From: Anadara kagoshimensis
Lineage: Eukaryota; Mollusca; Bivalvia; Arcoida; Arcidae
Reading direction: 5' to 3'
Assembly (NCBI GenBank): GCA_021292105.1
Contig: CM037862.1
Span: 30,536,169 to 30,600,168, forward strand
Length of the DNA stretch: 64,000 bases
The notes beneath the pieces are model-generated. The model saw only the letters and a program-made list of their open reading frames with translations. It was not told the DNA's origin and ran no database searches. The position numbers and the translations under genes are program-made. The first letter of the stretch is position 1. Every line of letters starts with the position of its first letter. Of the stretch, positions 4,505-62,700 are shown one piece after another.

Positions 4505-4708
4505 TCATATACTGTGTAATTTCCCAGAACCTTGGGAAACAAATATTATAGGGTATAACGTGGTGCAATAATAAACCCCCTTTCTTAATTTTTGCCACAT
4601 GTCCACAATGCCAGTAGCCTCAGATTTTTTGTATATATAATAAATAATTGTTACACAGATTACCAATGTAAGTATAACGGCTACTACTGGTCCGATAATC
4701 CAACCGAC
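4505..4708 (-). CDS. E38: last exon, transmembrane helix and cytosolic tail
   Basis: 204 bp, 67 codons and TGA (4505-4507). After VGWIIGPV comes a hydrophobic run to about residue 24, then YKKSEATG, giving a type I membrane topology with a basic stop-transfer end. The tail of about 42 residues includes DMWQKLRKG. Acceptor is a long pyrimidine tract ending TTACAG. I saw no later exon, and the tail is short compared with vertebrate stabilins. Confidence 0.75.
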   Translation of the reverse strand, partial: VGWIIGPVVAVILTLVICVTIIYYIYKKSEATGIVDMWQKLRKGVYYCTTLYPIIFVSQGSGKLHSI

Positions 4709-7700
4709 CTGTAACAGTAGAAATAAAATAGAAAATCAACTAATTATTACTAAACCTGTTTTATTTTTCAGCAATAGACGGCCTAATCGGAATACAATTC
4801 CACCTTAGTAGTGCTCGGACCAAAATTGTGGAAATAACATAGACATGTTGGACTTTTGATTGAGTTTCTGGTAAAAGATACATGTAAAGGGGATACAAAG
4901 AACCTCCAACAGTACGATAACCACGCCAATTTACCTCATTTTGCCATTAAATCTATTGTCCTACCTAAGAGCAAAATACCCCGCCCCAAACATCTACACG
5001 ATTTTAATGTTTCCCGACGACCTTGGCCTCTCTGATATGAGGTCATGGGCCAGGTTTCAATAATGAAAATTATTTATGTAAAGTTTTATGACAATCGTTC
5101 AAAGCAATTATGATATATGGTCCGGGTACGATTTTACACGGACAGACAGACCGACGGACTAGATTATACTTTTTAAACCCCTTTATTAAAATATAAATAG
5201 ACAGCTTAATTATCTTAAACGGCAACAAGGAGCATGGATGACAAAGATCATCAAGACTTAATAGGACACGTGTATATAGTTACACAGTAATGACACAATT
5301 AAACACAGGAAACGATGAATGATGCTGAACTATCAAAATACAATATAATGATTGATCATTACTACTGTTATCGAGATTGGAAGAATATTGTTTAAAAGTA
5401 CATTATAGATAATTGCTCTTATTTGGAGGCCATTAGTTGAAGAAAAGTAAAAAAAACCAGATTGTCGAGAAAATCTCTAGCCCTCGGCAAGAAAACTGAC
5501 AAACAAGGCTTAACAATATGTATGGGTTGTAATCAGTATCCAACAGCTTAATATTGTAATCAATACCCAACAAATATAGCGTACAAAATAAGAAATACAA
5601 ATAACACTATCAACGCACGTGACTAATTGGTATAAAGCATGAGACGGTAAAGTTTTCCTAAAGAAATATTAATGAAAAAAGAAGTCTGATTCAAATACTT
5701 ACACTTATCTTTGATGATGACAAAGCACCGGTCTGAACATTTGTTGACTAAAAACAAAAAACAAATTGTTACTTTAAACTGTTTTTCAAACATCAAAACG
5801 CTTGAAGCAAAGATAAAGTATTTATCAAAAAAAAAAAAAAAACATTTGACAAAAATGAGAGCCAATGTTGTCATACGTTAACAACAAATAGGTTCTGAAC
5901 AGTCAAATAGCTTGAACCAAAAAAAAAAAAAAAAAAAAAAAATTACAATCCACGCAAGGTTAAAATATCATTATGTCTTACAAATATAAATACACGAACA
6001 CTGTGTACTGAAGAAACATAACTGTGTTACTGTGGCCTTGATAAAAAATCTGTATGTTGTTATAACATATCATTCAAATACAAGGTACCACTGAATAACA
6101 CTGAGTTAAATAATTACAAAATGTATGTAAATGTGTTTATAAAAGGAAAGACAGCACTAAATAAATACAACGTACTTTAAAACAATCAAAACCATCGCCG
6201 CTAGCATCGCCTATACACGTGCAATTAATTCCAGCTCCATCCTATGAATATAAAAATATACAGATCGTAAAAAGAAATTTGTCCTTGGCACTGGCAGTAG
6301 CTTACGGAACAAAGAACATTATACAATACAAGTGAATGATAGAACAGACAGGTACGTGTAAATAAATAAAAATAGCTATGTCTTTGATTTTATTAATTTT
6401 GCTTACGTCTATAAATTTGTTTATTGGAAAAACTAAAATAGTTATTTTATTGATGCGACTGTATGTGTTTAATTTCGAGTTTTGTTTATGATGCAAAGAT
6501 GCAAGAACATTCCTCCACAGGTTCTTAGTAGAAAGGGAATATCAGACAAGTAGTTGCTTGTTTTAATTAATATTGAAATTACTATTACACAATCAACTAT
6601 CATTTATATGTTGTCTTCAAACATTATAATAATGACTCAGTAAAAGGTTATTGTAAAACGATCTTTTGTTTTTACCTGGAAAACACAGGTCGCATTTTCA
6701 TGACAACCGCCATTGTTTACATCACAAGGATTATCACACGAGAATCCATCTCCAATGTAACCTAATTTACAATGGCATGATGTTGTACCCTCAACTTCTA
6801 GGCATTCTGCATGATGACTACATCCACCATTATTAAAGCTGCATGTTTTACCTGTTATTGTATCATACATAACATAATTATCTCGGTAACATGATAAATT
6901 TAACTCTTAAATATCAGAATTTATGTTGAAAAGATACCCAAAGCATAAGAATATATTTTACAGTATATATAGAACATGTCATATTACATATCATATCAGT
7001 GATTTGTATTCAAAAGGAAAATAACTTTTCCCTGACCTCTGTAAACCGGACACCACTCTAAACCTGACACAAATACGTTTTCTAGTTCGATTATTGCAAC
7101 GATTAAGGCAAGATGTCTTTCAGAATTGGTTTGAAAATCAGAGCACTCGGCCTCACTTCCCTGGTGGGAGTTCATCTGTCTAATCCGACTTGTCAGTTCC
7201 AAAGTTTTTTCTTTGCTTCTTGGTTGTGATTCGGACATTGATTAGTATGTTTGTTTTTGATTGTGTCAATGTGAATCATAAATGTTTGTTTATAATAGTA
7301 ATATCAATTATGAGTGAAAGTGAATAAACTTGTTAGTGTGTATATTTATAAATTTTAGTGTGCATACAGTGCGCTTTCGTGAATCAAAGTAACTATTATA
7401 CATATTGATAATATAATTATCACGATCCTATTTGTAGTCCCTGTAACAGTAGAGTCATTCAATCAGGAGATTTCAGTTGAGTAATGGTGTTTAACGTCCC
7501 AGTCAAAAATATTTCACTTATATCGAGACGTCGCCAGCTATAGGCGAAGGTGCAGAAATTTTGCTGTGCGTTGCGCTGATGGCATTATACAACAGGGTTC
7601 TTTAGCGTGCCAAGCCCAGCGTGACACGGGACCTCGTTTATTTTAAGTTCCCATCCGAAAGAACCGTGACTTTCATTTCGTAATGCCGATTGCTTGGCGA

Positions 7701-10700
7701 AAGAACAGTCACTACCCACTTGGGTCAGACCCAGTCGGGGATCGAACCCACGACCTCCCACTTACGGAGCGAGCACTCTACCAACTGAGCTACCGCAGTG
7801 GTCATTCATTCAACCAGGAGACTTCCAGTTCACGATCAGTATAAAAATAATACAAATGTTCACATTTGAAATCTATTTTACAGGATAAAACATCCGTAGA
7901 GTGATGTATACAAATATTAAGAAGACATGATACTTACTACATGGGTATTTGTTATCTCGACTGACACATATTTCGCAGGCTTCTCCTTCGAAACCTTCGA
8001 AACAAGAACAGACACCAGTACCATTTAACCCGTCGTTACATGCACCGTTATTATTACATGGGAATTCTTGTCCACCGGGACACTCTAAATTAAAATGTCA
8101 AAAACTGTAGTTAAGCAATGATGTAATTGTTAGGTTGAATGCCATATATGTAATTCGTTGTATAAAGTAACAGTAATAGGAACAAACTCTGTCCTAGATT
8201 ATTGTGAAACCAATACACTATTAGCTTGATCTGTATAGAAACATAAAAAATGAAGCCATTGCATGTCATGCAGCTTCAAATGTAGCCTTTCGTAATGAAG
8301 CTAATACCACCAACCTGATAATTGTAACCCTAAATCTAACACACTCATTATCATTTCAGACTTTAACATGTGACATTCTATCATGGCCAACACAAACCAC
8401 TAATAAAACACCTGATTGAAGAAAATGATCTTTGTTTAAGGTATGATCCATCCATTACATGATAGAATATGGAAATAATTTGAAGTTTCACGAAATCTCT
8501 CGAAATTAAGAAGTATGTAACCACCGTGAAAATAACCTTATAGCCAGGGCACGAATTTACAAGGTCAGAGACACAAACATGGTGATGCCAACGTAACATT
8601 GTTAATATAAATAATAAATTATTGGACAAGTTTACATTAAAAGCATGCATATCATTTCAGCAACCTTGACCTTAAGACAACGTCTATTTTATAACGGGAT
8701 ATATGTCACTCACCTAGACAATGTGGACCATAAAAACCAGAACAACATTTTTCTTTCTGAAATTGAAAATAGACTTATCAATAAAACAATAAAACCTATA
8801 CCTGATGCAGATGTAGAAATATTTTTAAGTAATTTGAAGAATTTCTATTTTCTATGTATCATAGATTTACAACACGATGCAAAACATCTAATTAAAATAA
8901 CAATCTTAAATTATAAAAAGTTAAATTTCACCCACCTTTGTAACAGTCTCGCATGTTGCTTTACAGCCAATAAACTGTTGATTGATATCTTGTCGTATTT
9001 TGAAAAAGCATTGAACATTTTGTATTGGTTCAGCAACATGATATCCAGGAGGACAGACAACACGTTGACGACAAAATTGACATTCACTCTGAAAAATGAA
9101 ATCAAATTAAATTCCCAATGACGTACACAACCTAGACCTAAGGTATATCGAGACATAACCAGCTATAGGCGAAGTGGAAGACATTTTTACCGTTTAGTGC
9201 GCTAAAGGCAATGTGCAGGGGTGCTACTTAAACGTGTCACACCTGTTTGGACGCAGGGCATTGGGCTTAAGGTCTCTTCCGAAGAACCTCATGGCTTTCA
9301 TTTCTAAATGTCAAGCGACTGGCGAAAGAACAGCTTCTACCTATTTTCAAGTCTCGGTCAAGCCCCGGTCGGGTTTTAATCTACGACCTCATACATACGG
9401 ACCGAGCAGTCTACGAATTTAGCTTTAAGCATTAGAAGCGAGTTTCTGTTACGTTTAACCCATTAGTTTTATTATGTAAATCAATCGCATTATCGACCAA
9501 AACGGACAATAGTCGTTTAAGGTGATCGAGTATGTATCGAAGTGTTTGCCAGGGTGGCCATGTATGATTCAAGTAGTGAATAATAAGCATTATTTAGACA
9601 AAAGGCAATATAACAGATTGTTGATAGCATCCATGTTTGTATTCCAAATAGTCATTCCGTTAAGATTTTAGTCTGTGCAAATCGACTTCGGAATCCTTTT
9701 TCACATGCGACATCCATCAATTAATTATTTTTATTTAAAAATATGCATCAGGAGATAAAATTTAAGAAAATGAAGTTCAACTATTACAATTCCATGCTGA
9801 TTTTACCTATGCGGTAAAATTGGTACATCCATCGTGAAAAAAAATTAACCTTGAAATCTTTATAGAATTGAGTCTCTGACGTGTTATTAAGTAATGTTAC
9901 GATTTACACAATACAGTGTCTTTTACATTATACATAATAAAATTCATAACTCAAAGCAATATCTAAAGGAATAGAACAACTAAATGTTTCATGTTACCTG
10001 ATTCATAGGAATCATACATTTAATATCTTCCTGTTGGAGAATTTCTCAAACAAAGTAAAGCTATATTAACCTTACCCACGTAGTGTTGACCAGCTTCTCA
10101 TCGCATCTGTGAAGAGTAGGAACAAGTGGACCATCTATTCCATGTATAACACCCGCATCTGTCAACATATCCGGCTTTTTTATTTCTACTTCATTTACAA
10201 ATACCTGATTTGCAAAAAAAAAATAGTAAAAGCTAAATCTAAACATATTTGCGGTTTTTGTACTGTTATATTTCAATTTTACCTACAGTGTATACATCAA
10301 TATTTAAAAAAAATAACGACACAAAAAAGTTAAAATAGGCATAACATTACCCGTCTCTGACTGTTTTTTTCTTTTCAAATTGTGAACATCCAGAGTTTCA
10401 GTAAATTACGATTATATAATTCTACTTCTTGACAGTAAAATTATGATAAAGGCCATGGACTAGTCAGTTAGTATCCATATTTTTCAAGAAATATTTTTTG
10501 AAATATATTTTATTGATCACATCAGATGAAAAATGACAGGAATAATTTCCAGTTAAATCAAATTTATAACTCTTCAGTTAAAAAAAGCCCAAAATTATTA
10601 ATTGTAATAATATATTCAGCATTAATTATTTCAATTTGACTAAGTGGGTTAAATATTAAGTTTTCATATGAACTTATTCTTTCAATGTATCGGTTCACCA

Positions 10701-31600: not shown

Positions 31601-34388
31601 GCCACAGAAGTAGATCCATGGCATAGCCTGCAACACCATTATCAACCACAGTAGCATGTCTATGTTATAGCCCGCCACGCAATATAACCTGACAAATATC
31701 TTGATAATAATGCCATCATGAACCACAGTAGTAGATATATGCCATTGCCTGCCTCGTCATCATCAACAACAGTAGAAGACCAATGTTATAGCCTGCCACG
31801 CAATATAACCTGGCAAAATCTTAATGATCACGCCATTATCAACCACAGCAGTAGATCTATGTCATAGCCTGCCACGCTATCATCGACCACAGTAGTAGAC
31901 CCATGTTATAGCCTGCCACGTAATATAACCTGACAAATATCTTGATGATTATGCCATCATGAACCACAGCAGTAGATCTATGCCATAGCCTGCCACGCTA
32001 TCATCAACCACAGTAAAAGATCTATGTTATAGCCTGCCACGCTATCATCAACCACAGTAGTAGATCCATGTTATAGCTTCCTACGCAATATAACCTGACA
32101 AATGTCTTAATGATCATGTCATCATGAACCACAGCAGTAAATCTATGCCATAGCCTGCCACGCTATCATCAACCACAGTAAAAGATCTATCTTATAGCCT
32201 GTCACGCAATATAACCCGACAAATATCTTGATGATCATGCTATCATGAACCACAGTAGTAGATTTGTGCCATAGCCTGTCTCGCCATCATCAACTACAGT
32301 AGATCGATGTTATAGCCTTCCACGCAATATACGAGGGGAAGTCAGAAAGTTCATAGAACAGCGTATTTAGCCAAGCGTAACACACATTTTCTTTACTTAT
32401 TTACGCCATTGTAAACATATCAAGTTTATTTGTCACAACATATTTGTGTAATTCTCAAAAGCATTCAAAGTTGGTGACCATCAAGCAATGATGGGAAATC
32501 AAAATGTTGAGTTTAGGGCAGTAATAAAGTTCCTCACAGTAGAGGGATCAAATGCCAAAGAAATTCAGCGGCGAATGACCGAGGTGTACGGTGACAGTGG
32601 TCCTGCCTATTCCACAGTTGCAAAATGGTCAGCCGAATTTGAACGTGGGCGCACCTCACTGAAGGATGACCTACGGTCAGGTCGGCAGATGCCATCACAA
32701 AGGAAATTGTCACGTCTGTGGAGACCCTCATCATGAATGATCGTCGAATTAGGATTGATGACATGGCTAGGGAGTGTGACATTTCACATGGAAGTGTATA
32801 CACGGTTATCCACGAGCATCTTGGGATGTCAAAAGTATCCAAAAGATGGGTCCCCAGAAACCTTAATGTGCAGGATCGCTTCCAAAGACTCCAGTCAAGT
32901 CGGGAGCTTCTTGGCATTTATCATGATAACCCGGAGAGTTTAGTTTAGTAGAGAGTTTATTTACGTTTAGTAACTGGTGATGAAACATGGATTCATTATT
33001 GGGACCTAGAAACAAAAAAAGAGTCCATGCAATGGAAGCACCCTGGCTGACCCCCACCAAAGAAATTCAAAACCTAATCATCAGCAGGCAAAGTCATGAC
33101 CACTGTGTTCTGGAATTCTAAGGGTGTTCTGTTAATCAATTATAAAACTGCTGGAATCTCTATCACTGGGGCTTACTATGCTGATCTAATAAAGCAGCTA
33201 TTAAATTAAAAAGGAGGGAAAAGTTGAGCCAAGGGGTATTGTTTCTTCGCGACAATGTTCTTGTTCACAAGTCAAGGATTGCAAAAGCAGTGATTCGTGA
33301 ATGCAAGTTCGAACAATTTAATCGCCCACCCTACAGTCCCGATTTGGCACCCAGTGATTATTCCCTTTTGAAATTCCATTTACGGGGAATCAGATTTCCT
33401 GATGATGATGGACTTTAGGCTGTCACAGAGGCATGGTTTCAGGACCAAACCGAAAACTTTTAGTTCAAAGGTATAGACAGTCTTAAAGAAAAGTGGGCTA
33501 AGTGCATTGGGATAAATGGGGACTATATTGAAAAATAATAATAAAATGTATAGTTTGTTGCGGCAATATATACCCAGTTCTATGAACTTTTTTACCTCCC
33601 CTCGTATAACCTTATAAATATCTTGATAATCATGCCATCATGAACCACGGTAGTATATCTTTGTCATAGCCTTCCACACTATCATCAACCGCAGTAGTAG
33701 ATCGATGTTATAGCCTGCAACGCAATATAACCTGACAAATATCTTAATGATCATGCTATGATCAACCACAGTAGTAGATATATGCCATAGCCTGTCACAC
33801 CATCATCAACCACAGTAGTAGATCCATGTTATAGCCTGCCACGCAATATAACCTGACAAATATCTTAATGATCATGCTATGATCAACCACAGTAGTAGAT
33901 ATATGCCATAGCCTGTCACACCATCATCAACCACAGTAGTAGATCCATGTTATAGCCTGCCACGCAATATAACCTGACAAATATCTTGATAATCATGCCA
34001 TCATGAACCACAGTAGTAGATCTATGTCATAGCCTGTCACGACATCATCAACCACGTAGTAAATCTGTGTCATAGCCTTTCAGGCAATACAACAACTCAT
34101 GAATATGCCATCATCAAACACAGAAGTATATCTACTCTACTGCAGTACGTAATAACCTCCCACGCATTATAACCTGGCAAATATCTTAATGATCACGCCA
34201 TTATCAACCACAGCAGTAGATCTATGTCATAGCCTGCCACGCTATCATCGACCACAGTAGTAGACCCATGTTATAGCCTGCCACGTAATATAACCTGACA
34301 AATATCTTGATGATTATGCCATCATGAACCACAGCAGTAGATCTATGCCATAGCCTGCCGTGATCGTGTTCTTATAAGAAGCTTATAG

Positions 34389-37400: not shown

Positions 37401-40400
37401 AGGACTTAATTTCTCAAAAATAAATAGGTTTCCCTGCAAATTCGCAAATAAAAATACTTCGAAATTTATTCTATTTAGTTTGAATATTCACTATTTACAT
37501 TGAATAATCACTTTTTATATTAAATACTCAATATTGACCTTGAATAATCTCTTTTTACACGGGATACTTACTATTTACATTGAATATTCACTATTTACAT
37601 TGAATATTCACTATATACATTGAATATTCGCTTTTTATATTAAATACTCACTATTAACATTGAAAAATTTCTATTTACTCAGAATACTTTCTATTAACCT
37701 TGAATACTCATTATTTACATTGGATACTCATTATTTACATTTATTATTTACATTGGATACTCATTATTTACATTGAATTATCTCTATTTACATTGAACAA
37801 TCTCTATTTACTCGGAATACTTACTATTTACATTGAATACTCACTATTTATATCACTATTAACATTGAATAATTTTAAAATATTCCTAATAATTATATAA
37901 TTATTGAAAATTTCATTAAAAACCCCATTAAAAATTTGACTTTTTCAAATCAATTATATTCCCATTAACAAGTTGAGATATCAAATTATTGATACTTTGC
38001 CAGCACCTCAATTACATATTATACCAGTTTTATTTTCAGAAATAGGGTTCCCATTAATCAAAGTGTTATATCATGTGCACAGTCCAAACATTATATAATT
38101 TATACCTGTTACTATACTCACATACTCAGTAAACTGTCTTAGAAATTCTTAATCCTTAGTTTTGGGCTTTAACTAAATAGGTCCAAAATACACCATTTTA
38201 GGTCTTAACTACCTAAAATAGTCACTGTACACGACGATTGTCCCTCTGGAAAATCTAGCAATGTAGGTTTTATTTACCCAGAAACTAACTCACGCAATGC
38301 CGATTTTCCTTCATTCGATTTTTTAACCTTTTATAGTAGGATAACACAGCCTCCTTCTTTTAGCAAAGTCATTTTTCTAACCTTACATTTCAATACCATT
38401 TCTCAATATTTCAGGCAACAAGTAAAGAAGATAAGCTATGACAAACGGCTTAACTTCATGTATTTCTTCATTATATACACCAGAAATGGAATTTATTATA
38501 CTAAGCCCACTGAATTTTCTATAGGATAGACGCCAGTAAGTGCTCAAAAAGGGAAGTAACTCTCATTGCAGAACACAATTGATTAAAGTGGTAGGATGGT
38601 CTACCTCATGATTTTAGTCGACACTAATTATTTGTTGAATTATTACAAAAACATGTTTATAAAAAAAAAATCTTGAAAATTATTAGAAAAATGTACATTG
38701 AGTACCCACTATTTCCATTACATACTAATCAAAAACAAACATACTAATCCATGTCCGAATCACAATCCAGAAGCAAAGTAAACACTTTGGTACTGACAAA
38801 TTAGGTTAGACACGTGAACTTCCACCAGGGAAGTGAGACCGGGTGCTCCGGAAGGGTAAGTACCTAATTATTTCAATTGCATACTTACTATTTACATTGA
38901 ATACTCACTATTTTAACTACATACTCACTATTTACATTGAATACTCACTGCAATCAGCGTTTCCATTCTGTTGTATCTTCCATCTACTTTGATCAACTGC
39001 CATATTGTTTTCTGAAAAAAAGAATAAATATAATCCAATAACAATAACAAGAACTTTACAATTACAATATTTATGTCTAAATCAGATGTAGAATAGACTT
39101 TATCTGACCATCTTTGGCGACTGTTTAAATTTGTTTTAAGATTACTGATTTAGGAGTGCATTTTGATGAACCTGCTATATATCTTTCCTTGTATGTTATT
39201 TAAGAATATTGTTCGTGTTTTTAAACCATTATCAATTATTTTTCCAGCACTCTTGTCGCCCGGGTTACAAAAGCTGAAAAAACCCCTTTTTTCAATCCCA
39301 TTCCATTGTTTTGAATACGAGTAAAGAGTTTATGAAACTAAAATTTCTTTCAAATGAAGGAAACGTTTATACAAATAAACCAATTAACAAATAAAAGATA
39401 AATGATACAAGAATACCATTTATCATGGTCATTATTGTTATTCTTGTTAAATTATTATTCATTATCTGCATCAGTATTACTTGAAATAAAGGAAAATAAT
39501 CCGTTAAAACATATGTAATATCTCGGATGGAACAAATTACAAAAAGATCTTTAATAATCATAAATACACATCCAACAAAATTGATTAAAATAAAAAAAAC
39601 GCACACAAGAAAGTTAATTGAGAGTTGGTATTTGGAACAAGTTGGTAAAAAAGTTTGAACGAGTTGGTAAAAAAGTTGGAACGAGTTGGTGATTAAACAT
39701 GGAACGATCGCGAGTTGGAAAAAGTTAGTTAGAACGAGTTGACTAGTTAGTTTTCAGTAGACAGCCTTGACATTAAACAAAGAAACTGAGAAAGCAACAC
39801 ATGCAGCAATGACCGAAAAAAGTAATAGTGAAAATGTAAATCAGACCTGAAACATACGAGTTACTGATTTTTAAAACAATACGCGTTACAATTCTGAATA
39901 CTAGTAGGTAGTAAGCAAAACCACTATGGTAGCTTGCTTCGTTAGTGGAAGGGAAGGCTTCAAATCTCGGCCGGGTCTGGCCAAGACTTAGAAATAGATA
40001 GTGAATGGTTATTCACCATTCACCAAGCACTCGGCATTTACAAATAAAAGAGATTAGGTCCTTAGTAAACCAATATTCGTCTCCCCCATATGCGCGGTAC
40101 GCTAAAAAGCACATTACCATGAGCGCACTTCATATACATGTGTCAAACTTTCTGTCACTATTACTACATCTGGTGAAGTCTAGAGAAGCAAGATATTCTT
40201 GACTGAGACGTTAAACCATTTTCAATTAATGAATCAATCTTAATAAAGTAATGCTTACTTCAAGATGACCTGGAATGACCGGTGGATTTGTTAATAATTT
40301 TCCTATCACGTGCACAATGCCATTGGCTGCAACAATATCTCCCTTAACAATAGAACTCTTACTTCCTGAACCTTTTAATCTGTATCTATATATCAATGAT

Positions 40401-43400
40401 CCCGATCTCTGAAATACATCAAGTATAAATAAACGTAAAATCTTCCTGAACCTTTTAATCTGTATCTATATATCAATGATCCCGATCTCTGAAATACATC
40501 AAGTATAAATAAACGTAAAATCTTCCTGAACCTTTTAATCTGTATCCCGATCTCTGAAATACATCAAGTATAAATAAACGTAAAATCTTCCTGAACCTTT
40601 TAATCTGTATCTATATATCAATGATCCCGATCTCTGAAATACATCAAGTATAAATAAACGTAAAATCTTCCTGAACCTTTTAATCAGTATCTATATATCA
40701 ATGATCCCGATCTCTGAAATACATCAAGTATAAATAAACGTAAAATCTTCCTGAAACTTTTAATCTGTATCCCGATCTCTGAAATACATCAAGTATAAAT
40801 AATCGTAAAATCTTCCTGAAACTTTTAATCTGTATCCCGATCTCTGAAATACATCAAGTATAAATAAACGTAAAATCTTCCTGAACCTTTTAATCTGTAT
40901 CCCGATCTCTGAAATACATCAAGTATAAAAAACGTAAAATCTTCCTGAAACTTTTAATCTGTATCCCGATCTCTGAAATACATCAAGTATAAATAAACGT
41001 AAAATCTTCCTGAAACTTTTAATCTGTATCCCGATCTCTGAAATACATCAAGTATAAATAATCGTAAAATCTTCCTGAAACTTTTAATCTGTATCCCGAT
41101 CTCTGAAATACATCAAGTATAAATAAACGTAAAATCTTCCTGAACTTTTAATCTGTATCCCGATCTCTGAAATACATCAAGTATAAATAAACGTAAAATC
41201 TTCCTGAAACTTTTAATCTGTATCCCGATCTCTGAAATACATCAAGTATAAATAAACGTAAAATCTTCCTGAAACTTTTAATCTGTATCCCGATCTCTGA
41301 AATACATCAAGTATAAATAAACGTAAAATCTTCCTGAACCTTTTAATCTGTATCCCGATCTCTGAAATACATCAAGTATAAATAAACGTTAAATCTTCCT
41401 GAACCGTTTAATCTGTATCCCGATCTCTGAAATACATCAAGTATAAATAAACGTAAACACTTTAGGTTTTATGATATTTGAAAGTACCTGAAAGTAAAAA
41501 AATATAAGTAGTTTTCCTTATTTTTACGTATCTTTCTATTTTCACCTAATTCAGAAAAAAATCAAAAACTCGGAAGAGTACCAGTATTTTAATAGGCAAA
41601 TGTGTGGCAATTTGTACCGAGAAAATACAGAGTTTTGAAACATGATTAAAATAATATAAATTATACAACAACGACTCCTTGGTATTATTATGTTTATTAA
41701 ACCTAACCATACATCGGAATAGGTTATTTTTGTATCTATTAACACACAAAATTACACATGTTTGAAAGATAATAATAATAATCGTTCCAAAAGCATCAGA
41801 TGATATATAAATGTTGTAGTTAATTAATTAATGCTCTACTACCACAAATGGTAGGGTATCAACAGGAGTCGGCGCTTTCGATAAACTCAAATTGTCACAA
41901 ACATTGTCTCAAAATAAAAGCATGTACATCCGACAGCGATACTCACTCTTCTAGTGGTAATCTCAGCAGTATTCCCTTGTAGTGTGTGTACAACTGTTGC
42001 GTTATGAAGATCATCCAATGACAATTCTCCTACTATCATGTGTTGTCGCAATACCTGCTTAGCCACGTTTTTATTGGCCAGGAAATTTCTAAACTTAAAA
42101 AGTATGAAAAAGTAGAATTCATCTGTTAAGAACTTAGTCATTCTACAAATATTCATTTTGTAAAATTTCAAAACTGCTCTGGAGTCAAATTCATTATGAT
42201 TCGTTAGAAACGTTTGGTCTTTTTATTAATAGACAGGTATGCCATAAATCGAGAACGCCACAGTGGAGGATCGCGCCACATTATTTTTGTTCTTTATCAT
42301 TGTTAGCGACTGGATAGTCAATAAAGCTGGAAATTATAAGGGTTTTCATTAAGTGCATTATTTCTGTCAATCAATAATTATTATAACCTTTATATTCATT
42401 GTTTTTTTGTTTTCAAAATTTCAATCCGCTTTCTTAGTAACGCCTTGACATTGTAGTCACTCATTTTCTTTTACTCGTACGAGTATGTTTGAAAGGGATA
42501 CTTTAAATGATGTTATTTTCAGAATTATGTTTTTCAAACAAAAAATATAAAATATACAAATTCAAACATGTTCTCCTTTATTATGAAACATGAAGAAAGC
42601 CAACTGTGGAAAAACAACGATATACACATGGCTGTTCCGCTTAACTTATGTACTCATTTTGGGACATGATGCTATGTACCTCGAACAATACTAACGACGT
42701 AGCTTTTAGTTGCAATATAATTTCTTTCAATTAACATGATGAAGGTAATTCAACTGGACAAATTGTTTCAATGCACCGTTTTGCAAAAAAATAGTAAAAT
42801 GTGCTCCATAGAAAAGAGTTCGCAGCGACTATTTCAATGCTTTTGAATTTTGCAGTAATGTAAGAATTGAAATAATCAACGTTTACTCGTGGTATGCCAC
42901 AGAATAATATACGGACCGACGTTCACATGGTACAAATATATTGCCACCTCCGCATATGAACTATAGCTCGTGTGTTAGTCTGCAATATACCACGTGTAGA
43001 TTGATTTCTCTTTGTATTTTTGTGGACGATTGATATTATTGCTTATAACTTACGGACATTTTTCTGAGAACAGTTCTAAACGCTCTGTCGGTTGGTAAAA
43101 ACATCGTAAATGGTCCATGATATTTCAATTCTTCTGAATAAACAGCTTTAAACAGTTGTTTGGCAAACTTCATACTACCTTTGAGAGTGGGGTCGTTATT
43201 GTCAAGTTCAGTAACCAACTGAAAATATACCAATGGGAAGTGTATTTCGAAATCTGGTAATAAATCAGACACACTCTTTATTTTCAGAGAAAACTAGATT
43301 ATATGAGATGTTTTCTCAAAACATAGCAGTAATTTGAAAAATATAACGTCCTTTTCGAATACGATGGTTAGCTCGAAATCAATTGAATACCATATATAAA

Positions 43401-46400
43401 CTATGTATAACTATGGTTACCTTGAAGTCACATAACATGTGTAACTCGAAGATCAAATGCCGTTGATGACTCAGAGTCAATCGAATACCAAAAATAACTC
43501 AGTGTCAATCGAAAACCATGTATAATTCACAGTCAATCGAATACCATGGATGACTAACAGTCAATCGAATACCATGATAACTCACAGTCAATCGAATACC
43601 ATGAATAACTTACAGTCAATCGAATACCATGGATAACACACAGTCAGTCGAATACCATGGATAACACTTAGTCAATCGAATACCATGGATAACTCACAGT
43701 CAATCGAATACAATGGGTAACCCACAGTCAAACGAATACATGGGTAACTCATAGTCAATCGAATACATGGATAACACAGTCATTCAAATATCATGGATTA
43801 CTAACAGTCAATCGAATACCATGGATTACTAACAGTCAATCGAATACAATGGATAACACTTAGTCAATTGAATACCATGGATAACACTTAGTCAATCGAA
43901 TACCATGGATAACTCCTAGTCAATCGAATACCATATATCACTTAGTCAACCGAATACCATGTATAACTCACAGTCAATCGAATACCATGGATAACACTTA
44001 GTCAATCGAATACCATGGATAACTCAGTGTCAATCGAAAACCATGTATAATTCACAGTCAATCGAATACCATGGATGACTAACAGTCAATCGAATACCAT
44101 GGATAACTCAGAGTCAACCGAATACCATGGATAACTCACAGTCAATCGAATACCATGGATAACACTTAGTCAACCGAATACCATGGATAACTCACAGTCA
44201 ATCGAATATCATGGATAACTCACAGTCAATCAAATACCATGGATAACTCACAGTCAATCGAATACCATGGATAACTTACAGTCAACTAATACCATGGATA
44301 ATTCACAGTCAATCGAATACCATGGATAATTCACAGTCAATCGAATACCATGGATAACTCACAGTCAATCGAATACCATGGATAACTTACAGTCAACTAA
44401 TACCATGGATAATTCACAGTCAATCGAAAACCATGTATAATTCACAGTCAATCGAATACCATGGATGACTAACAGTCAATCGAATACCATGGATAACTCA
44501 CAGTCAACCGAATACCATGGATAACTCACAGTCAATCGAATACCATGGATAACACTTAGTCAACCGAATACCATGGATAACTCACAGTCAATCGAATATC
44601 ATGGATAACTCACAGTCAATCGAATACCATGGATAACTCACAGTCAATCGAATACCATGGATAACTTACAGTCAACTAATACCATGGATAACTCACAGTC
44701 AATCGAATACCATGGATAACTTACAGTCAACTAATACCATGGATAACTTACAGTCAACTAATACCATGGATAACTCACAGTCAATCGAATACCATGGATA
44801 ACTTACAGTCAACTAATACCATGGATAACTCACAGACAACTAATACCATGGATAAGTCATAAACAACGAAAACCATGGATAACTTGCAGTCAGAGAATGC
44901 CATGTATAACTCACAGTCAGATAATACCATGGATAACTCACAGGCAGATAATACCATGGATAACTCACAGTCAGATAATACCATGGATAACTCAGAGTCA
45001 ACTAATACCATGGATAAGTCATAAACAACGAAAACCATAGATAACTTACAGTCAAGAATACCATGGATAACTCAGTCAGATAATACCATGGATAACTCAC
45101 AGTCAGAGAATGCCATGGATAACTCATAGTCATTTAAATACCATGGACAACTCAAAGTCAATTGAAAGGCATAGATATTCAATAGTCATTCTAATACCAT
45201 GACTACCTTGCGGTCAATAGATAAATCGAAACCACCTGAATATCACAGATAACTTAAACCATTTGAATATCATGGATACCTTGAACTCATTCGAAACAAT
45301 GATTAGTTTGAAGCTATTTGAATACAGGTGGTAATTAGAAATTTTTCTAATACAATACGTAGCTCGACGATATTTGAAAACCATTTATGACTGGGTACAG
45401 AACCAAAACGTACCCCAAACGTGTTGTGGACATATTGGTTTTTGCTGTGTTTCTTATTCTTTATCTTCTTATGTTTCAATCCTTGTCCGCAGTGTTTCTC
45501 AGTGATGGCTTATCTGATCTTTTGAAACTTAACAAGAGTAATCAGGAGAGGGTGTCAATGTGCCTTTTGTTATTTGGTTTTTTTAAATGACAACAAAACC
45601 TATATTTATCAGAGTTTAATGCCAAGAACATATTTTTCATTAAACAGTTATTTCTCCCTAATTACTAATTTCTCCCCAATAGTACAAAGTTTTAATTTCT
45701 CCATAGTGGAACTTTCAACTCCATAGTTATTCCAAATTCCATAGAGTCCATTTTCTCGCGAAGAAGGAGATTTAGGATAACAACAACAACAACAAAATAA
45801 TTACTTGGCAGTTAATTTTGAATCATGGTAGATACACAAAACAAAAGTCCTTTTCAAATTATATAGTGTTTTGAATAAACAAACGCTATATTTATTAGAG
45901 TTTAATGCCCACCTCAAAAAGAATGTTTTTATTAAAAACTTATAACTCACTTAACTGCTTGACAGATAACGTTGAAACTTGGTAGATACAGCATACAAGA
46001 TATAATGATTTGATAACGTGTACTATCCAGTTCGAAATAAGAATATTGCAAGTCACAGAAATAATGGCTTCGATGTGGGACTTGTAATGGCATCTCATTA
46101 CATTTATTAATGTTAATTGAAGATGATAATAAATGACTTACACCAACAATATTATTAAAGCATACAGTTCCATCACCGCCATAACCGTCTTTACAGGTAC
46201 ACCTAAAATAATAATACAAAGATTAAGATTAAAGTAAAATGACTACATTACACAGATCAAGCTGCAGGTGATATGATTGACGTTGTGTATTTTAAAAAAA
46301 CCATAAAGATATGATAACAATCTGGTTCTTATTAAACAAAATGTTTTACTGACCCCTTGTACATTCTACAATGAGTGAAGATGTCCTTATTGATATTAAA

Positions 46401-49400
46401 TTTGACCTGTAGATTGTACATATCACTTAGGATTCACTTTTTAACATTTTTACTTTATAGTTCTAGAGTTTTCTTGATTCTATTTCTCTATCCCTCGCAT
46501 TATGTTCCGCCAGGAACATTGATGTGTTTTAGTATCTTTAATTTTCATTTTAAAATTATGTTTATCTTTAAATCCTAATGATATTTATCTGCTTATTCTA
46601 AATACAAGACTCAAATATCTGATCAATCAACATTTCCAATAAAACTGTATTAATAAAAAATAAAAATTAGTAAAATACAAATAAAAAAAAAAGTATGTAT
46701 GATGATGATGATGATGGCTTGTTCGGCCATTTATCAGCGACATATTGCGTTGGTGGTGATTCATTACCGACCATAACTTTGATATGAACTGTTTTAAAGA
46801 AGAAAATAAACTGTCACATACGTAAATGTTTTCGGTGCAATGGTTTTGCATAGAGCATTTTCATCACAGTGAGACGCATTAAATGCACAGTCGTCTATTA
46901 GAGTACACCCATATTCGTCCCTGTATTCCTCATAACCTTCTTTACAACTGCAATAGCTCTGAAATAACAATACTAGTATATACACGTACCGCTATATTGA
47001 TTGATTGATCTAATTAATGGGGTTTTACGTCCCTTCAAGAAAAAATCACTTATATCGAGTTAATTTTTACCTTTGCCGTGCGTTCAGGGCAATATGTAAG
47101 TAGGTTCGCCTGTCGTGACATGGGATGTCGAGTTTAAGGTATGGATCCGCGACTCTCTAAATGCCGAGTGTTTGACGAAAGAACAGTCACTACCTATTTT
47201 CAAGTGTTGATCAGACCCGGTGGGTTCAAACCAATGATCTACAACATACAGGGAAAGCACTCTACCAACTAAGCTACCGTTATGGTACATGTATCGGTAG
47301 AAAACACGTTAAAGTATTTTATTTCAATAAATGTTTTGTTTTTCTTGAAGTCGCAAGGAATAAACATTACAAAGACAACCTAAAATTTCATATTAAAACA
47401 CCGGACCAACAAATTGAACAGAGGTTTTCCTGAAAATATTAATTGTTTCTTACTTGTTCTGGTCCAGTATATACACATACTGATGAATTTATGGCACATC
47501 CACCGTAGTTTGTCTGACATGGATCAATTGGATCACATACCAATCCGTCACCAGAATACCCGTTATTACACGTACAGTTATACGTGGCAGGCCCGGTCAA
47601 TGTACATGTAGCGTTCGCATCGCATGGACTGTCTTTAGTACAGGAATCAATAGCTGTAAAAAGTAAAACATGTTACGTGTGTGACTCGAAAAAAATACAT
47701 TAGGAGTCTTAGGTTAAGAAACCAATGTGAAATGTAATCCAGTTTGTTGTACATCGTAATATTAGTCATCGTCATTTTTATGATCTAGCCCTATGTCACA
47801 ATATTTACATTTGTGATGTTTTATAATATGACATTCTGTGTTTGAGACCAAATGTAAATTTTAAAGGTGCTAAAATGAGGTCACTTCTTTCTTGCCTGTG
47901 TATATACGCTTGACGTCATAGAATGGTTGTTCCAACAATTGGAATTGCGTGTCGTACACGCCTTTTTTAATAATTTAAATTTATTTCGGGATTTAAAAAC
48001 CAGAAAATATTTTTTTCCAAAAATGAGAAATGTAAATATTACCAGTGAACAGTCTAGCTTTACACGGTAATGGAAGTTATTTAAGAAATAACATTCTATT
48101 TGAGTGTATTCATTCGGTATTATGAATGAGAGTCAGGAATAGCATATTCAATGAACTGCGAAGCAGTTCATGTTAAATATGCTATTCCTGACTCTCATTC
48201 ATAATACCGAATGAATACACTCAAATAGAATGTTATCTCTTATATTTACAATCATAAAAACATTGATAGCATGTCCGAAATATAAAACTATCGCTACAAT
48301 AATTTATTTCATTTAAAATTCCGACAAACATACGGGATTGATGGAACAGCCTTGCTCCAAATAAGGAAAGTTACGTCGGGGGTAGACTTGGATGCTGACC
48401 AATCAAAAAATGCATGACGTAATAGATGTCATTCTGTGACGTAATCGAATGGTTAAACGTTAAGTAATCAGAGGTCATGACCCCACACTGTATCCAAGAG
48501 CAATTGAATGCCAGTAAAAACAAATAGGTTCATCTAAAGAAGGTCAATTCTAATTGTAAATATAACACTATAAACGCTATTTCTAGACAGTTCAATTGTA
48601 AAATAACTGAACTGCATTATATCCATAACACTATCCTTCGTAAAACGAGACCTGTCTATAAAAGTATCTTCTTCATAAAAGTCAAATAGGTTTATTTTAT
48701 CTCGAACTGTTTATACGTTATATTACATTTGTATATCTAATTGGTCAAAAACATCAACGTATCCATCCGTTTTTAATCAAAGACAGAATATTATAAACCA
48801 GCTGTATAGCAAAGTTTGATTTGTTTGTGAAGCAGGTTTAAAAGAATTCCGTTCAGACAGGAAAATCTGAACTATAAACACAACTGAAATACGGCCATAC
48901 ATAGGATCTTACAAAAAAGTATAATAAAAAACAAACATACTAATCCATGTCTGAATCACAATATATATATATCATATAGCCTTAGTAACCAGTGGTCTTA
49001 AGCGATAGGTAATGAATCCGATCATCTCTCACTGACTGTGACCGAATGCCACGTTGAAACAAACCTAGTGTTAGAACGGTTTTAGTTTACTTACTGGTTC
49101 GTTGATTTGACTGGCAAATCAAGTTTACTCAATAATCAATCAAAAAACTAACTGACTCAATATAGGCGAAAGAATCTTGACTTGGTGTTGTAGTTATGTC
49201 CATAAGCACCAGTTGCCTTGTTACAGCAGCTTGACTTGGTGTTGTAGTTATGTCCATAAGCACCAGTTGCCTTGTTACAGCAGCTTGACTTGGTGTTGTA
49301 GTTATGTCCATAAGCACCAGTTGCCTTGTTACAGCAGCTTGACTTGGTGTTGTAGTTATGTCCATAAGTACCAGTTGCCTTGTTACAGCAGCTTGACTTG

Positions 49401-50670
49401 GTGTTGTAGTTATGTCCATAAGCACCAGTTGCCTTGTTACAGCAGCTTGCTCACAGTAGTGCTGGCTATTTCAAAGTAAGTTCAATGCAGTTGTATTTTT
49501 CAATATACAATGTATATACTAATATATAACTTACGTATGCATTCGCCATTGCTATTTTTTTCGTACCCATGTTCACAGGCGCACATCACATATCCATGCA
49601 CATCTTGACATTTAGAATTATTACCGCATGTTTTATTTTCGCATTTTGGAATCCCTGAATATAAATGAAAGTTAACTTTAAATGAAATAGAGATTCGTTG
49701 TATTTTTCTAGAACTTTAAATAACTACTTATGGAGGGTAACTGACCTTTTTAGGTAATCCCCTCTTATGAAGGAACGAGAAGCTTCATAACAGAACGTCA
49801 CTGCATTAAAACGGAGCTAAAACTTAATCCATATGAACATATTCAAATCTTCATGGACATACAAAATAGTGATAGCTCTTTATAAAGTATAAACTATCAA
49901 TTTAACAAATCCTAATGTACTTTTGTTAGTTGATTGTTCTATTACTTGTTTTAAAATGGAGAATAGAACTTTTTAAAAAATCAAGCTACTAAGGATTTTT
50001 TTCTGAATACAGATCAGGGGCACGTTTCACGAAACATACTTAGGAAAAGGTTCTTTCCTGTTTATGATTTAGGAACCATTAATTTTCCAAGTACGTATCA
50101 CGAAACTGTCCTAAAATTATGAATGATCCTAACTCTGCTAATTTTAAGACAGGTAAACTTTGGAAAGAGCTTAACATGGCGACTTCCTACATGTATATGT
50201 TACAATAAAGATAGTTTAGACGACAACCTAAGTTATAGATAAATCTTAATCCGCAGTACAGACCTTCCAAATTAAAATCCAGGGAATTACCATGCGCATC
50301 CGCAATTAGCGTAGCATATTTCTGTATAGAATAAAACGTTGCCGCTATGAGCATTAAACATGTTTAAAAACCAGACAGATGACAAATCCCCTTTTGTACA
50401 TGTATATACCATGGGCGCCACTAGATTAAATAAATAAATACGCACAAATGTGTTTGCCGAAGGCATGTCCATTCCCCTGGAAGTGTTTTTTGGACTATTT
50501 AATGAACCAAAAATCCTATGAATACACTACATCATAGGAGAAAAACATATTTTGGATACATAATGTGATAAAAATCATTTCATTCCCTCTACAGAACTCA
50601 TCAGGTGGTGACAGGAGAGAGAATATAAAGAATTCCTATAGATATCCCCACGATTTATTATTATTATTAT

Positions 50671-56700: not shown

Positions 56701-59700
56701 CCCCTTTATCTCTAGATGGTTTCACCTTTTATGGATTAGTTGTCATATCTATCATAATGACAACAATTTTAATACATTTATCTTTCGCGTGGATAAACAC
56801 AGTTTGTGCGTTTCCTAACTCGCCGAATGCATTGATGCCTTTCCGTTTTCCCAGTGCTACAACTAAAGTTTGACCATTAATTATTTTGGTAGTAATGTCT
56901 CCATGCAAACGTCTTCCTCAGTGATATTTTGAAGATCCGACTCGTCGGCTGCGGATAACAAGGGTCCTGATGTATCAGGTATAGAAAGCGACACTGGAAA
57001 TAGTTCTTGTTTCAACAGTTCACTAATATTTCCACCAGAAAAAGAGAACACACTTGATAGTATTATACAGATACAGTCATTAAAGTTAATCAAATCTTTC
57101 AGTACCACCAGTACTTTGATTTCTTTTTTTTTTAAAGTGGATACTTATATAAATACGGGCAATATGATTCAGTAAAATTATTTTAACAGAAGTCTAAAGT
57201 TTTGTTAAACAGTTGTAAATGCACAAATGTGTTTATACTAGACGTATTTATTTGCCACAATTAATCATATTTGTAAAGGTCAAATTTGTGCGAGCGTCTA
57301 ATCTAATTTTTCATGGAAAACTTTGAAAATAAGTGACTGAATTAGTTGGATATGACTTTCTTTTAATTTGAAGATACCACTTACATATTGAGAAGACAAA
57401 ATGTATTAAGAAAAACTCCTGTAAGCCACCTTGAATTTGTGTATAGGTCAATATGGGCATTTTCACTTGAACTTTGCACCCATTGATCTTTAGCTACCCC
57501 ACAATGGCCCCTGGGTGAAATCTTGCTTGGCAACAAGCCGATTCTACCAAAGTAAAGTTCAAAGAAGGTTATGACATAACTTGCCACCTTTGAACACGCT
57601 GTCCTCCCTACATCGAAAAATAAGCGGTTTTTTCAAAATCCTCTACCAGACTAATATGACAATCAAATACAAGTTAGTTTAGTACTCGTACCATAGATTA
57701 TGAACCATTACTCAGTTTGGACCCCTCTCTCAGTCTGAGTGACTGTTGTATGAAGGAACCGATAATAGACATTTGTTTAAATCTAGGATTAAGAAGATAC
57801 TGTATTTTCTCTAAATTGTTTTTATATCGAATTCATGGAAAGAGTTACTTATATGTTTAAATAGATGGTCTCTCAGTTCTGCATTAATTTGGCACGATAG
57901 AAAAAAGGGCAGTTCATTCTCAATAGTGTTGCGTGTTATACAGGGTCTACTATCTCTAGGAATCTTTTTATATCTTCCAACTTCAATTGCTAAAGAATGA
58001 TCACTTAGACGAAATTTTTGTAAAAAGCTGTCGATAATGAAAATCATTAATTGTAAGATAACTTTCTAAATTGAGATTAATTTTTAATTTGCTGTAAAGA
58101 CTCAGTTTTGATGTGTCAATATTTAAGTCAGCTATCTTTGTAAAAATGATTTCTTTATAATAGGACTCGGTCACATTCTTTTGTTTTCTTTTTGTTTTAG
58201 GGAATGTTTTGACTTCTTGAAATCTAAATTATCAACTTATTTTTCATCAGATAGTGCCAGATCATCCTGGATTTTGTAAATAAAAGTAAACTATGTATAT
58301 ACAGATTTTTCATGCAACATTTTATTTAAGTTTAAACATTCTTTAACTAGAGGATTTAAGCGATAGAAATCTCGTTATCTCGAACTCGGATATCTCGAAC
58401 TACCGGATATCTCGAACTTTTTAAAAAAAGTCCGAACAGAGTTGTTCTTTATTAAACCAAAATCACTCCGGTTATCTCGAACTCGGATATCTCGAATTAT
58501 CGGATATGTCGAACAATTTTTTCGTCCCCTTGAATGAAAATCCTAGGAAAATTACACTCGTTAACTCGAACAAAAAATTTAGGAAAATTAAATTTGTAAA
58601 CTCGAACAAAAATTTTGGAAAATCAAATTTGTCAAGGCCTTCAGATTTTTTGGTAGAAAAAACACATTCCGACATAAATAAAATATTTGACTGTCGGCCT
58701 CGTGTATATTTTAAAATTACAACATTGCACTGACCTCCAAATTTCCTTAAGCCCTTAATTATTACCCCTTGCATAAGCAATTAAACCATCAAGGAGATTA
58801 GCAGGTGTTATAATTACTACCAAGCTGAACATGGCTGCCAAAAGCGTGTGATGTGAACATTACTCAATACAAACGGAAGCATGGAGTGATTAAAGTACAC
58901 AAAGCGAAACTGGTATGGAGACGAAAGCGGACGCCACTATTTGTCGGCTAATAAACGATGTAATAGATAATCTCCCGATTTTTATATACTACATTCTCAA
59001 TTATAAATAAAAATAATAAATAATGCAGTTTTTATATATACATACGATATAGGAGAAAACGGCAATTTAGTTTGACAAGATAAAACCGGAAGCGACTTCC
59101 GGTAGGCGTGTACGAGTTACTTCCCTTTTGTTGCCGTTTTTAACATCGGTTATCTCGAACTCCGGATAAGTCGAACTTTTTGCATTTCCCCGTCGAGTTC
59201 GAGATAACGAGAGTCAACTGTCTGTCTTTTTTATACCAAGAATGTATTTACAGAATTTTAGATGAATCTATTCAAATGGCTTTTTTCTGTCATTGATAGG
59301 TAGTCAACTACCGAACTGTTTTTAACTGCTCTGACAGAATTATATACTGACTGAAAGCTATCCATGAACCAAATTTCGGAATTGTACAATAAAACAGGCC
59401 GTATTAATTTATCAAATAGATTACAAGAGAGAGATATTGGGACATGTTCAAAATTATTTAAATATTTTTTCATTGCATGTAAAGCCTTTGAGACCTTTCT
59501 AGGATAATTCTATTGCTGTATACTTAAGATCACCTTTAAAATCAATACTATTGCCTAAAAAGTTATATTGTTTTACTTCTGATAAACAATATCCATCATA
59601 TATTAGAGGAGGTGTATCTTTAAATCTTGATTGAAACGTTAGAACTTTTGTTTTCTGTGAATTAACAGATAGTTGCCATTTATAACAATATTCTTTTAAC

Positions 59701-62700
59701 TTGTGTAAACAGTTTTGTAGACCTTTTTGTGTTTCAGATAAAATAACTAAATCGTCTGCAAAGCTAAGACTATTAACACTGGATTGATCTAAAAGGGGTG
59801 GTTCACAACTAGAGTCGAATATCTCATGCAAGTCATTAATTAATAAAACAATTAAATAGTGTTGGACTTAAACAATCACCATGCTTAACTCCTCTATGTA
59901 TAGGGAAAAATCTGTTATTTTATTATCAATTTTGATAGATGCAAGGTTGAGGAATACATACTATCTAATATATAATTTACTCTTTTTATGTTTGATATAC
60001 TTTGTTACTAAGGTTTTAAGAACAAAAAGATTGTCTGAAGTCGAAAGCTTTACGTAAATCCACAAAACAAGCATATAATTTACTCTTTTTATGTTTGATA
60101 TACTTTGTTACTAAGGTTTTAAGAACAAACAGACTGTCTGAAGTCGAAAGCTTTACGTAAATCCACAAAACAAGCATATAATTTACTCTTTTTATGTTTG
60201 ATATACTTTGTTACTAAGGTTTTAAGAACAAAAAGATTGTCTGAAGTTCTGTGATTGTTTCTAAATCCAAACTGATATTTAGTCATCAGAATAAAACAAA
60301 CTTAACCTGTTATTTAAGACAGAACTGAAGAGTTTAGCTATAGAGTTCTGCAAAGAGATACCCCTATAATTTCCAAAATCTTCATGCTTTCCAGATTTAT
60401 GAATCAATATGATAAAGGAATTTCTCCATAAAGATGGGTAATGCCCAGTATTTAATATTAAATTAAAAAGTTTTGATAATATTTTACAGGTAACACTACT
60501 AATGTGCTTAATTATTTCATTTGGTATGAAGTCAGGCCCTGTGCTTTTCCCAGATTTTAGGTTTTTTATGCATTTCTTTATTTCAAATATTGTAATTGGT
60601 TTATCAGTAATTTCATTGTAGATTAGAAAAGATTTACAGTCTGACAGTTTTGATTTATTTCATGTTCAAAGTTTTTATCATAATTTTTTATTAACCCTGT
60701 TAGCTAAAATGTTGAATTAAGCCTTCTGATGAAGCATCAATTTGACATTTTTCATGCTGATCTTTATAGTTCAATGATTTAAGAAGCTGCCAATTTGCCT
60801 TGGGATCAGTTTCTTGCAAGGTTTTCATTTTCTTAAACAAATTTATTTGATATCCTCTGTATTTTTGTTTAACAAGTTTTTAAGGACTTTTGCATTTTTG
60901 AAATAATTATCTCTTATTTGAGAGTTATAAGGATGAATTTTAAGCTTTCTACCAAGTCTATTCACTCTTTTCTTTAGTTTTATGATCTGATTATTTATCC
61001 ATGGTTTCTGTGTTTTTTGATTAAGTTTTTGTTTTCTTTTGATTATTTTACAAGATTTTGTAACAAGAGTGCCGTTGCTAGATTAACATCATCTACAGTT
61101 TCATGAAAGCTGAAATTTTCAAAAGTAGTAATCTGACAAGAAATATCTTCTTTAGAGAGAGCATTAAATAATTTATCTCTTGAAGGTTGATCCCATTAAT
61201 AGGTAACAGGTATTGGGTGAAAGTTTTCACATGCTGGAACACAAAAGTTAACATCACACTTAAGGTGAACTGATATTTGAACATGATCTGATAAATAGTT
61301 GGGGTTATCTGTTTGAATTTTTTTTATTTGTGACAACAGGTCCAAACTGGTAAGGGCGTAATCGACAGTACTCGCACCATTTGTTTTAAGCAAATCAAAT
61401 TTGCAAAAAAGTCGCCAATAAAACGACCATTTAACACATGGATCTGGGAGGCTATGCAAAGATCCAAAAGTTGTTTATCTTGGGCATTACATACAAAATC
61501 TAAAGAATTTCTTGTTAAGGTATAATCTGAAAGATAATTTACAGGAAGAATGATCATTAGAGATTTCATTTTCTATAAAATCTGGCCTATTTGCATTTCT
61601 AGCTTTCAAGTCGCCCATAAATAAAATACTACCTTTTTGACTACATTTTGCAATTTCATTTTCTAAAAGTAAACAAGAGGCCCATGGGCCTGATACGCTT
61701 ACCTGATAACAATTGGCTAGCTGATAGATTTAAAGAAAACATAAATACTAAACCCCACTGACTTTTTTCTTTACATCAAAATGATCATTGTATCAATACC
61801 TACAACATTCTAATATGCATGCCTATACAAAACGTTTATAGTTTTCAAGATAATTAACCATTTCAGTATTGTTTTGCATCTGTGACCTTGACCTTTAAAC
61901 CCATGACCTTTTTCCATACATCGAAATGATTGTTGTATCGATACCTACAACATTCTAATATACATGCCTATACAAAAAGTTAATAGTTTTCGAGATGATT
62001 AACCATTTCGGTATTGTGTTCGCATCTGTGACCTTGACCTTTGAACCCATGACCTTTTTCTATACATCAAAATAATCGTTGTATCAATACCTACAACATT
62101 CTAATATACATGCCTATACAAAAAGTTCATAGTTTACGAGATAATTAACCATTTCGGTATTGTTTCACATCTGTGACCTTGACCTTTGAACCCATGACCT
62201 TTTTCTATACATCAAAATGATCGTTGCAGCAATACCTACAACATTCTAATATACATGCCCATACAAAAAGTTAATAGTTTTCGAGATAATTAACCATTTC
62301 GGTATTGATTCGCATCTGTGACCTTGACCTTTGAACCCATGACCTTTTTTTATACATCAAAATGATCGTTGTATGAATACCTACAACATTCTAATATACA
62401 TGCCTATACAAAAATTGATAGTTTTCGAGATAATTAAACATTTCGGTATTGTTTCGCATCTGTGACCTTGACCTTTGAACCAATGACCTTTTTCTATACA
62501 TCAAAATGATCGTTGTATCAATACCTACAACATTCTATACATGACTATACAAAAAGCTTATAGTTTTTGAGATAATAATTATAATCAGAGGTAAAAAAAT
62601 TAGGTCACGACCTTTACAATTGACCTTGACCTCATTTTGAAGATACTAACAAGAAAATGTCAAAATTGAAAACCCCATGTCATTATCCGGTCAAATAGTC

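Follow-up and report, generated by a model that had tools for sequence, protein, structure and literature searches.

A minisatellite carrying sixteen acceptors with identical cores at an exon boundary of an apparent FAS1 gene in the bivalve Anadara kagoshimensis

Introduction

How would a spliceosome find the right 3′ splice site if sixteen of them, with cores identical base for base, stood in a row? This question is raised by a minisatellite in a 64,000-nucleotide stretch of DNA from the bivalve Anadara kagoshimensis (assembly GCA_021292105.1, contig CM037862.1, positions 30,536,169 to 30,600,168 of the forward strand), which we refer to as the window and whose own numbering is used below. 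The minus strand of the window is apparently part of a large gene with exons encoding FAS1 and EGF-type domains. The minisatellite lies between two of these exons, E9 and E10, and its units run head to tail, each spanning the end of the intron and the start of E10. A previous reading of this DNA, made from the letters and their open frames (the sequence-only reading), had noticed the array and suggested that its length might tune receptor output. Our analysis favors a different account: the array is probably a so-called mirage minisatellite that arose by tandem duplication of the intron–exon boundary, with the innermost acceptor being chosen by its position and the array as a whole being mostly neutral.

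Results

The array occupies positions 40362-41457 (minus strand) and consists of 16 units, each composed of about 33 nt of intron tail followed by an exonic portion of 32 bases in short units or 47 bases in long ones. The acceptor sequence TTTCAG/AGATCGGGAT (the slash marks the splice junction) was found 16 times on the minus strand, each time as an exact match, in a search allowing two mismatches, compared with a chance mean of 0.03 per window. Searched as TTTCAGAGATCGGGAT, this pattern has 16 matches without mismatch, a number reached in none of 100 shuffles (two mismatches allowed). These counts confirm the minisatellite of about 16 units, each with a complete acceptor and the start of the FAS1 exon, that had been described at 40374-41455; its extent is slightly wider than that, and the exonic share, put at 20–35 bases, is larger in the long units.

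Numbered from the outside inwards, the first exon bases of acceptors 1 to 8 are at positions 41426, 41361, 41296, 41231, 41166, 41102, 41037 and 40972, those of acceptors 9 to 16 at 40908, 40843, 40778, 40713, 40633, 40553, 40488 and 40408, the last being the innermost. The 15 spacings between them are 65 bp (ten cases), 80 bp (three) or 64 bp (two). Unit lengths of 65 or 80 bp, both 2 modulo 3, had been claimed throughout, and this applies to 13 of the 15 spacings; the two 64-bp units are 1 modulo 3. The acceptor core, comprising the last 21 intron and first 10 exon bases (–21 to +10), is identical in all 16 units. About 28 bases upstream of the exon start, every unit contains TTTAC or TTAAC, a branch-point-like motif by consensus. 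For the innermost acceptor, the productive one by reading frame, the intron tail covers 40409-40441 and the motif is TTTAC. The unique 5′ part of the E9–E10 intron, upstream of the array, extends over 41458-41946. No GTRAG donor was found inside the acceptor array of the window, and the units therefore cannot become small exons by means of a strong donor.

The source of the units is the genuine boundary within this gene: the last one continues into the real E10, and a search of the 1.115-Gb assembly with the unit as query gave at least 30 matches, all of them at two copies of this locus and none elsewhere (only the best candidates were scored and very common words were skipped, so that counts are lower bounds). 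An imported repeat family, transposon or satellite, was considered as the source of the array and is unsupported, since the query matched only the locus and its second copy.

The coding context of the boundary was established by joining the neighboring frames, all on the minus strand. The open frame that holds E8 (43054-43293; these are bounds of the frame, approximate for the upstream edge of the exon) encodes the N-terminal part of a FAS1 domain and has the donor ATGTCC/GTAAGT. E9 (41947-42093, 147 nt, phase 0 at both ends, donor AGAAGA/GTGAGT) contributes the middle, and E10 from the innermost acceptor (40259-40408, 150 nt, phase 0 at both ends, donor GAA/GTAAGC) completes the domain. The phase 0 of the E9 donor matches that of the acceptor TTTCAG/AGA, and the three exons joined in phase 0 yield a single Fasciclin domain of 77.7 bits that covers profile positions 5-122 of 123. 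Within E10, at the edge of the array, positions 40357-40366 read GGAA/GTAAGA, which resembles a donor roughly as well as the genuine site of E10 does; the outer units lack it.

We then asked what each acceptor would yield. From the innermost acceptor at 40408, the exon is open to the donor and completes FAS1, and this is the sole acceptor of the 16 that reads into the domain. All 15 outer acceptors meet a stop after 9-32 codons, TAA in nine cases and TGA in six; the prediction that they run into TAA thus holds for the stop as such and, in nine cases, for its identity. For four of them the resulting exon would be a multiple of three in length (1038, 714, 585 and 375), yet these also hit stops. 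The product of one outer acceptor scored 55.5 bits against the Fasciclin profile (positions 5-92), losing about the last quarter of it. A score of 72.7 bits was obtained for a third joint, a hypothetical one placed deeper within E10. With its full match, the innermost acceptor bears out the statement that correct splicing needs the site nearest the FAS1 coding part. Use of an outer acceptor would probably give a truncated, decay-prone mRNA, an expectation of the sequence-only reading that is supported by the early stops in 15 of 15 cases. The length of E10 would be 150 nt from the innermost acceptor and 230-1168 nt from the others, and the E9–E10 intron would measure 520 nt to the outermost and 1538 nt to the innermost acceptor.

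RNA pairing did not clearly distinguish the acceptors: mean predicted pairing of the acceptor region was 0.61-0.69 across all 16, and the innermost had the lowest mean (0.61, others 0.62-0.69), by 0.01. On these values, RNA structure is unsupported as the selector of the true site. An additional candidate, immediately upstream of the array, was an AG/GT site preceded by a strong run of pyrimidines (41484-41498; TTTTTTTACTTTCAG/GTAC, boundary 41488/41487). We judge that it does not serve E10, because a frame opened there lasts 16 codons before a TGA within the first unit, and because its pyrimidine tract is disrupted by a clustered multi-base change in the second copy of the locus. A role in recursive splicing is conceivable for this site.

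The second copy lies on the same contig (C6) and strand, 1.117 Mb away, with its array at 29459501-29460469. We compared the region C6:29401501-29501500 with the window, and the surroundings of the two arrays track each other over about 95 kb (the extent compared), broken by insertions. Substitutions amount to 1.00% or less in 36 of 46 two-kb bins and to 1.2–11% in the remaining ten, which include large repeat arrays where alignments overlap; the overall figure of 3.08% is affected in the same way. An array upstream of E8, at 43465-45166, has a 28-bp unit in about 62 copies, and the bins there align poorly between copies.

The acceptor array of the second copy has 14 units with spacings of 65 bp (nine), 80 bp (three) and 66 bp (one), and again the core from –21 to +10 is identical in every unit (14/14). 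Its 13 outer acceptors all lead to a stop, after 26-53 codons, the longest reading being that of the 66-bp unit, which reads through in frame into the next unit and then stops (53 codons). Units 1, 2 and the last are identical between the copies, and the interior units differ in make-up, as judged from the unit sequences. Three coding stretches, namely E9, the open frame with E8 and the portion of E10 beyond the array, are free of substitutions between the copies, and the array therefore evolves faster than its surroundings. Over the 1.94 kb upstream of the array, the copies differ by three short indels and by changes grouped in two clusters; over the 1.36 kb downstream, they differ by five substitutions and by short indels of up to 13 bases. 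Near 41491-41498 and 42248-42255, clustered multi-base differences stand in otherwise nearly identical flanks. A 4-kb sample taken about 360 kb before the window had no second copy among the matches listed (the best 40 of 362 candidates scored), and the copied block therefore seems limited. Either an unpurged haplotype or a segmental duplication of recent date could account for the second copy. A genome search with E9 and E10 gave four matches, all in the two locus copies, with no array-free paralogue that would show the ancestral state.

The same gene region contains a second boundary array, of 5′ splice sites. It is located in an EGF-type exon at 63596-64002 (minus strand, starting two bases beyond the window) and comprises nine in-frame 45-bp units, the exon's own included, compared with 18 in the second copy (about C6:29481489-29482298). 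Each junction reads CAG/GTATGT, a good donor by consensus, except for the final one, CAG/GTCCTG. The EGF domain at 8002-8082 shares 14 of 29 aligned residues with that of the array and runs uninterrupted into the second half of the domain. Most simply, an intact EGF would therefore use the first donor, leaving the remaining units in the intron. Based on strand and domain content, acceptor and donor arrays appear to belong to one gene. By comparison, the 54-bp array at 49176-49449 showed no overlap with the neighboring exon when read against it.

As to the identity of this gene, the joined FAS1 domain finds periostin (1.4e-22, the best E-value) and the FAS1 domains of TGFBI as structural homologues, with stabilin-2 appearing in the PDB only at an E-value of 0.23. 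Seven FAS1 candidate frames, picked by eye, all gave Fasciclin matches. Measured against the curated cut-off of 22 bits, three of them exceed it, with 27.4, 24.3 and 25.3 bits, one equals it and three fall short. EGF-type matches were obtained in nine of nine EGF candidate frames, several below their cut-offs, and one of these frames matches the STAB1-2 EGF model at 20.2, below its cut-off of 27. The host gene may encode a stabilin-like, scavenger-type receptor. Such genes combine FAS1 with EGF-like domains and have a membrane anchor close to the C-terminus; a hydrophobic stretch within 4505-4735 was noticed by eye.

Discussion

We propose that repeated tandem duplication of the 3′ end of the E9–E10 intron, together with the start of the FAS1 exon, created a mirage. 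Slippage or unequal exchange would then turn over the interior units, as selection at the protein level would need only the last one. Since the acceptor cores are identical in all units, the choice among them must rest on position, and exon definition would favor the innermost site, which gives a 150-nt exon where the others give 230-1168 nt. Splicing is thus expected to be mostly correct; any leakage should reach the two neighboring acceptors, which would give exons of 230 and 295 nt. Mis-spliced products would stop early and likely be removed by nonsense-mediated decay, and the array would therefore be mostly neutral. On general principles of splicing, its total length should matter little, which runs counter to the tuning idea.

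Several points weigh against this account. The use of the innermost acceptor is deduced from reading frame and domain, and its AG has a predicted pairing of 0.48, among the higher values of the range (0.30-0.54), which again amounts to no clear difference from the other sites. The outermost acceptor is nearest to the E9 donor, and an intron-defined or first-come choice would therefore take the wrong site. Moreover, the longest event-free run covers 33 of the 65 unit columns, with P ~0.03 by a simulation in which the eight events were counted by eye and the run was chosen after seeing the data. A constant acceptor core within a varying unit could at most hint at selection on the acceptors.

A rival account sees the array as a splicing attenuator: many of the transcripts would use outer acceptors, stop and decay, and the length and make-up of the array would set receptor output. 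We regard this as unlikely. The outer acceptors are unproductive in both copies (15/15 and 13/13), their splice-site cores equal that of the real acceptor, array length differs between the copies, and in human ABCA7 a variable number tandem repeat (VNTR) located close to a splice site reportedly alters splicing (PMC5954066). On the other hand, lancelet mirages are reported to leave splicing undisturbed (PMC3087553, PMC3902484), and under exon definition, length beyond the first few units should count little. Nor are the outer stops a sign of design, because out-of-frame reading of intron sequence is expected to give stops. Of the suggestion that length variation tunes receptor output, the variation itself is real between the two copies (16 versus 14 units), while the tuning is unsupported, given the undistinguishing pairing and the normal splicing reported for the closest cases. 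The broader proposal that both arrays are length-variable splice controls, with 14 or 16 acceptors and 9 or 18 donors serving as a heritable dial on the share or length of receptor mRNA, seems to us quite doubtful.

We rate even lower a rival in which array length or presence is partly an assembly effect, by expansion or collapse of the repeat, or in which the second copy is an unpurged haplotype and not a paralogue. Although separated by 1.117 Mb on a single contig, the two copies look allelic, as 36 of 46 bins differ by at most 1.00%; the seemingly limited extent of the copied block and the clustered differences near 41491-41498 and 42248-42255 amid nearly identical flanks point the same way. 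However, both copies carry the array with the same edge units and a different interior, unlike a simple assembly error, and the array stands whether the second copy is an allele or a paralogue. That the units are coding or exon-making, either entering the mRNA as small exons or adding amino acids by read-through, is an idea to which we give hardly any credence. Long and short units do encode FAS1-compatible residues to their end, and in the second copy the frame stays open across the 66-bp unit; against this, the array of the window is devoid of GTRAG donors, lengths of 64, 65 and 80 bp are no multiples of three, and every outer reading stops.

The mirage interpretation has close precedents. 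In the lancelet globin gene BflGb6, the duplicated segment joins the 3′ end of an intron to the 5′ part of its exon, with six and three units in two haplotypes; the interior of the array evolves in concert and the edges are not homogenized. Duplication can affect either kind of boundary, 5′ or 3′ (PMC3087553). According to the authors, reverse transcription polymerase chain reaction and Adh3 data suggest regular splicing (PMC3087553). Further lancelet cases are Adh, TnC (troponin C) and PGBD5, the last with imperfect repeats (PMC3902484). Our array shares with the lancelet mirages (Adh3, BflGb6, BflGb9, troponin C) repeats that span an intron–exon boundary on the 3′ or 5′ side, a copy number that varies between copies of the locus, and edges that escape homogenization while the interior turns over. 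Unit numbers are higher here than the six and three of BflGb6, namely 16 and 14 acceptors and 9 and 18 donors, and in contrast to the lancelet cases both boundary types occur in one gene region, in another gene, in an AT-rich window of a 1.115-Gb genome, known from genomic sequence.

Human internal tandem repeats in segmental duplications likewise involve, in some cases, minisatellite expansion at exon–intron boundaries; altered splicing patterns and novel introns are reported, half of the repeats lying within coding exons and being kept or spliced out (PMC2812944). Here, by contrast, every unit has an acceptor and the outer units are noncoding, although the human set may include comparable cases. 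Tandem duplication that supplies splice sites is also the basis of the Rogers model, in which introns are gained by tandem duplication of exon sequence (named in PMC3087553), and of the potato RdRp case (PMC4974935), and the donor array with its CAG/GTATGT junctions fits this scheme. The acceptor array differs from it, as it makes no new intron and lengthens an existing one at its 3′ end. The ABCA7 repeat, which is not known to contain the splice site itself, is a likeness in that it is an intronic VNTR reported to affect splicing. Among open-licence papers, as judged from titles and the first parts of abstracts, we noticed no boundary array of comparable size and, among the molluscan papers listed, no boundary minisatellites.

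Mirages being already known from lancelet genes, the array described here would be a striking new example of that kind, unusual for its copy number, for its occurrence alongside a donor-type array within a single gene region, and for the clean test of acceptor choice that it offers. Sixteen acceptors with base-identical cores that differ mainly in position are a natural experiment on the choice made by the spliceosome. Clean choice of the last acceptor would mean that, in this gene, exon definition prevails over choice of the nearest site; otherwise, the transcripts should reflect the length of the array. Together, the two boundary types illustrate how introns can become longer or move through tandem duplication, which has been proposed as a way in which introns are gained and slide. 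Open frames at 32452-33418 and 59258-61729, both inside the extent of the gene, were judged by eye to be coding remnants of Mariner-like and LINE-like elements.

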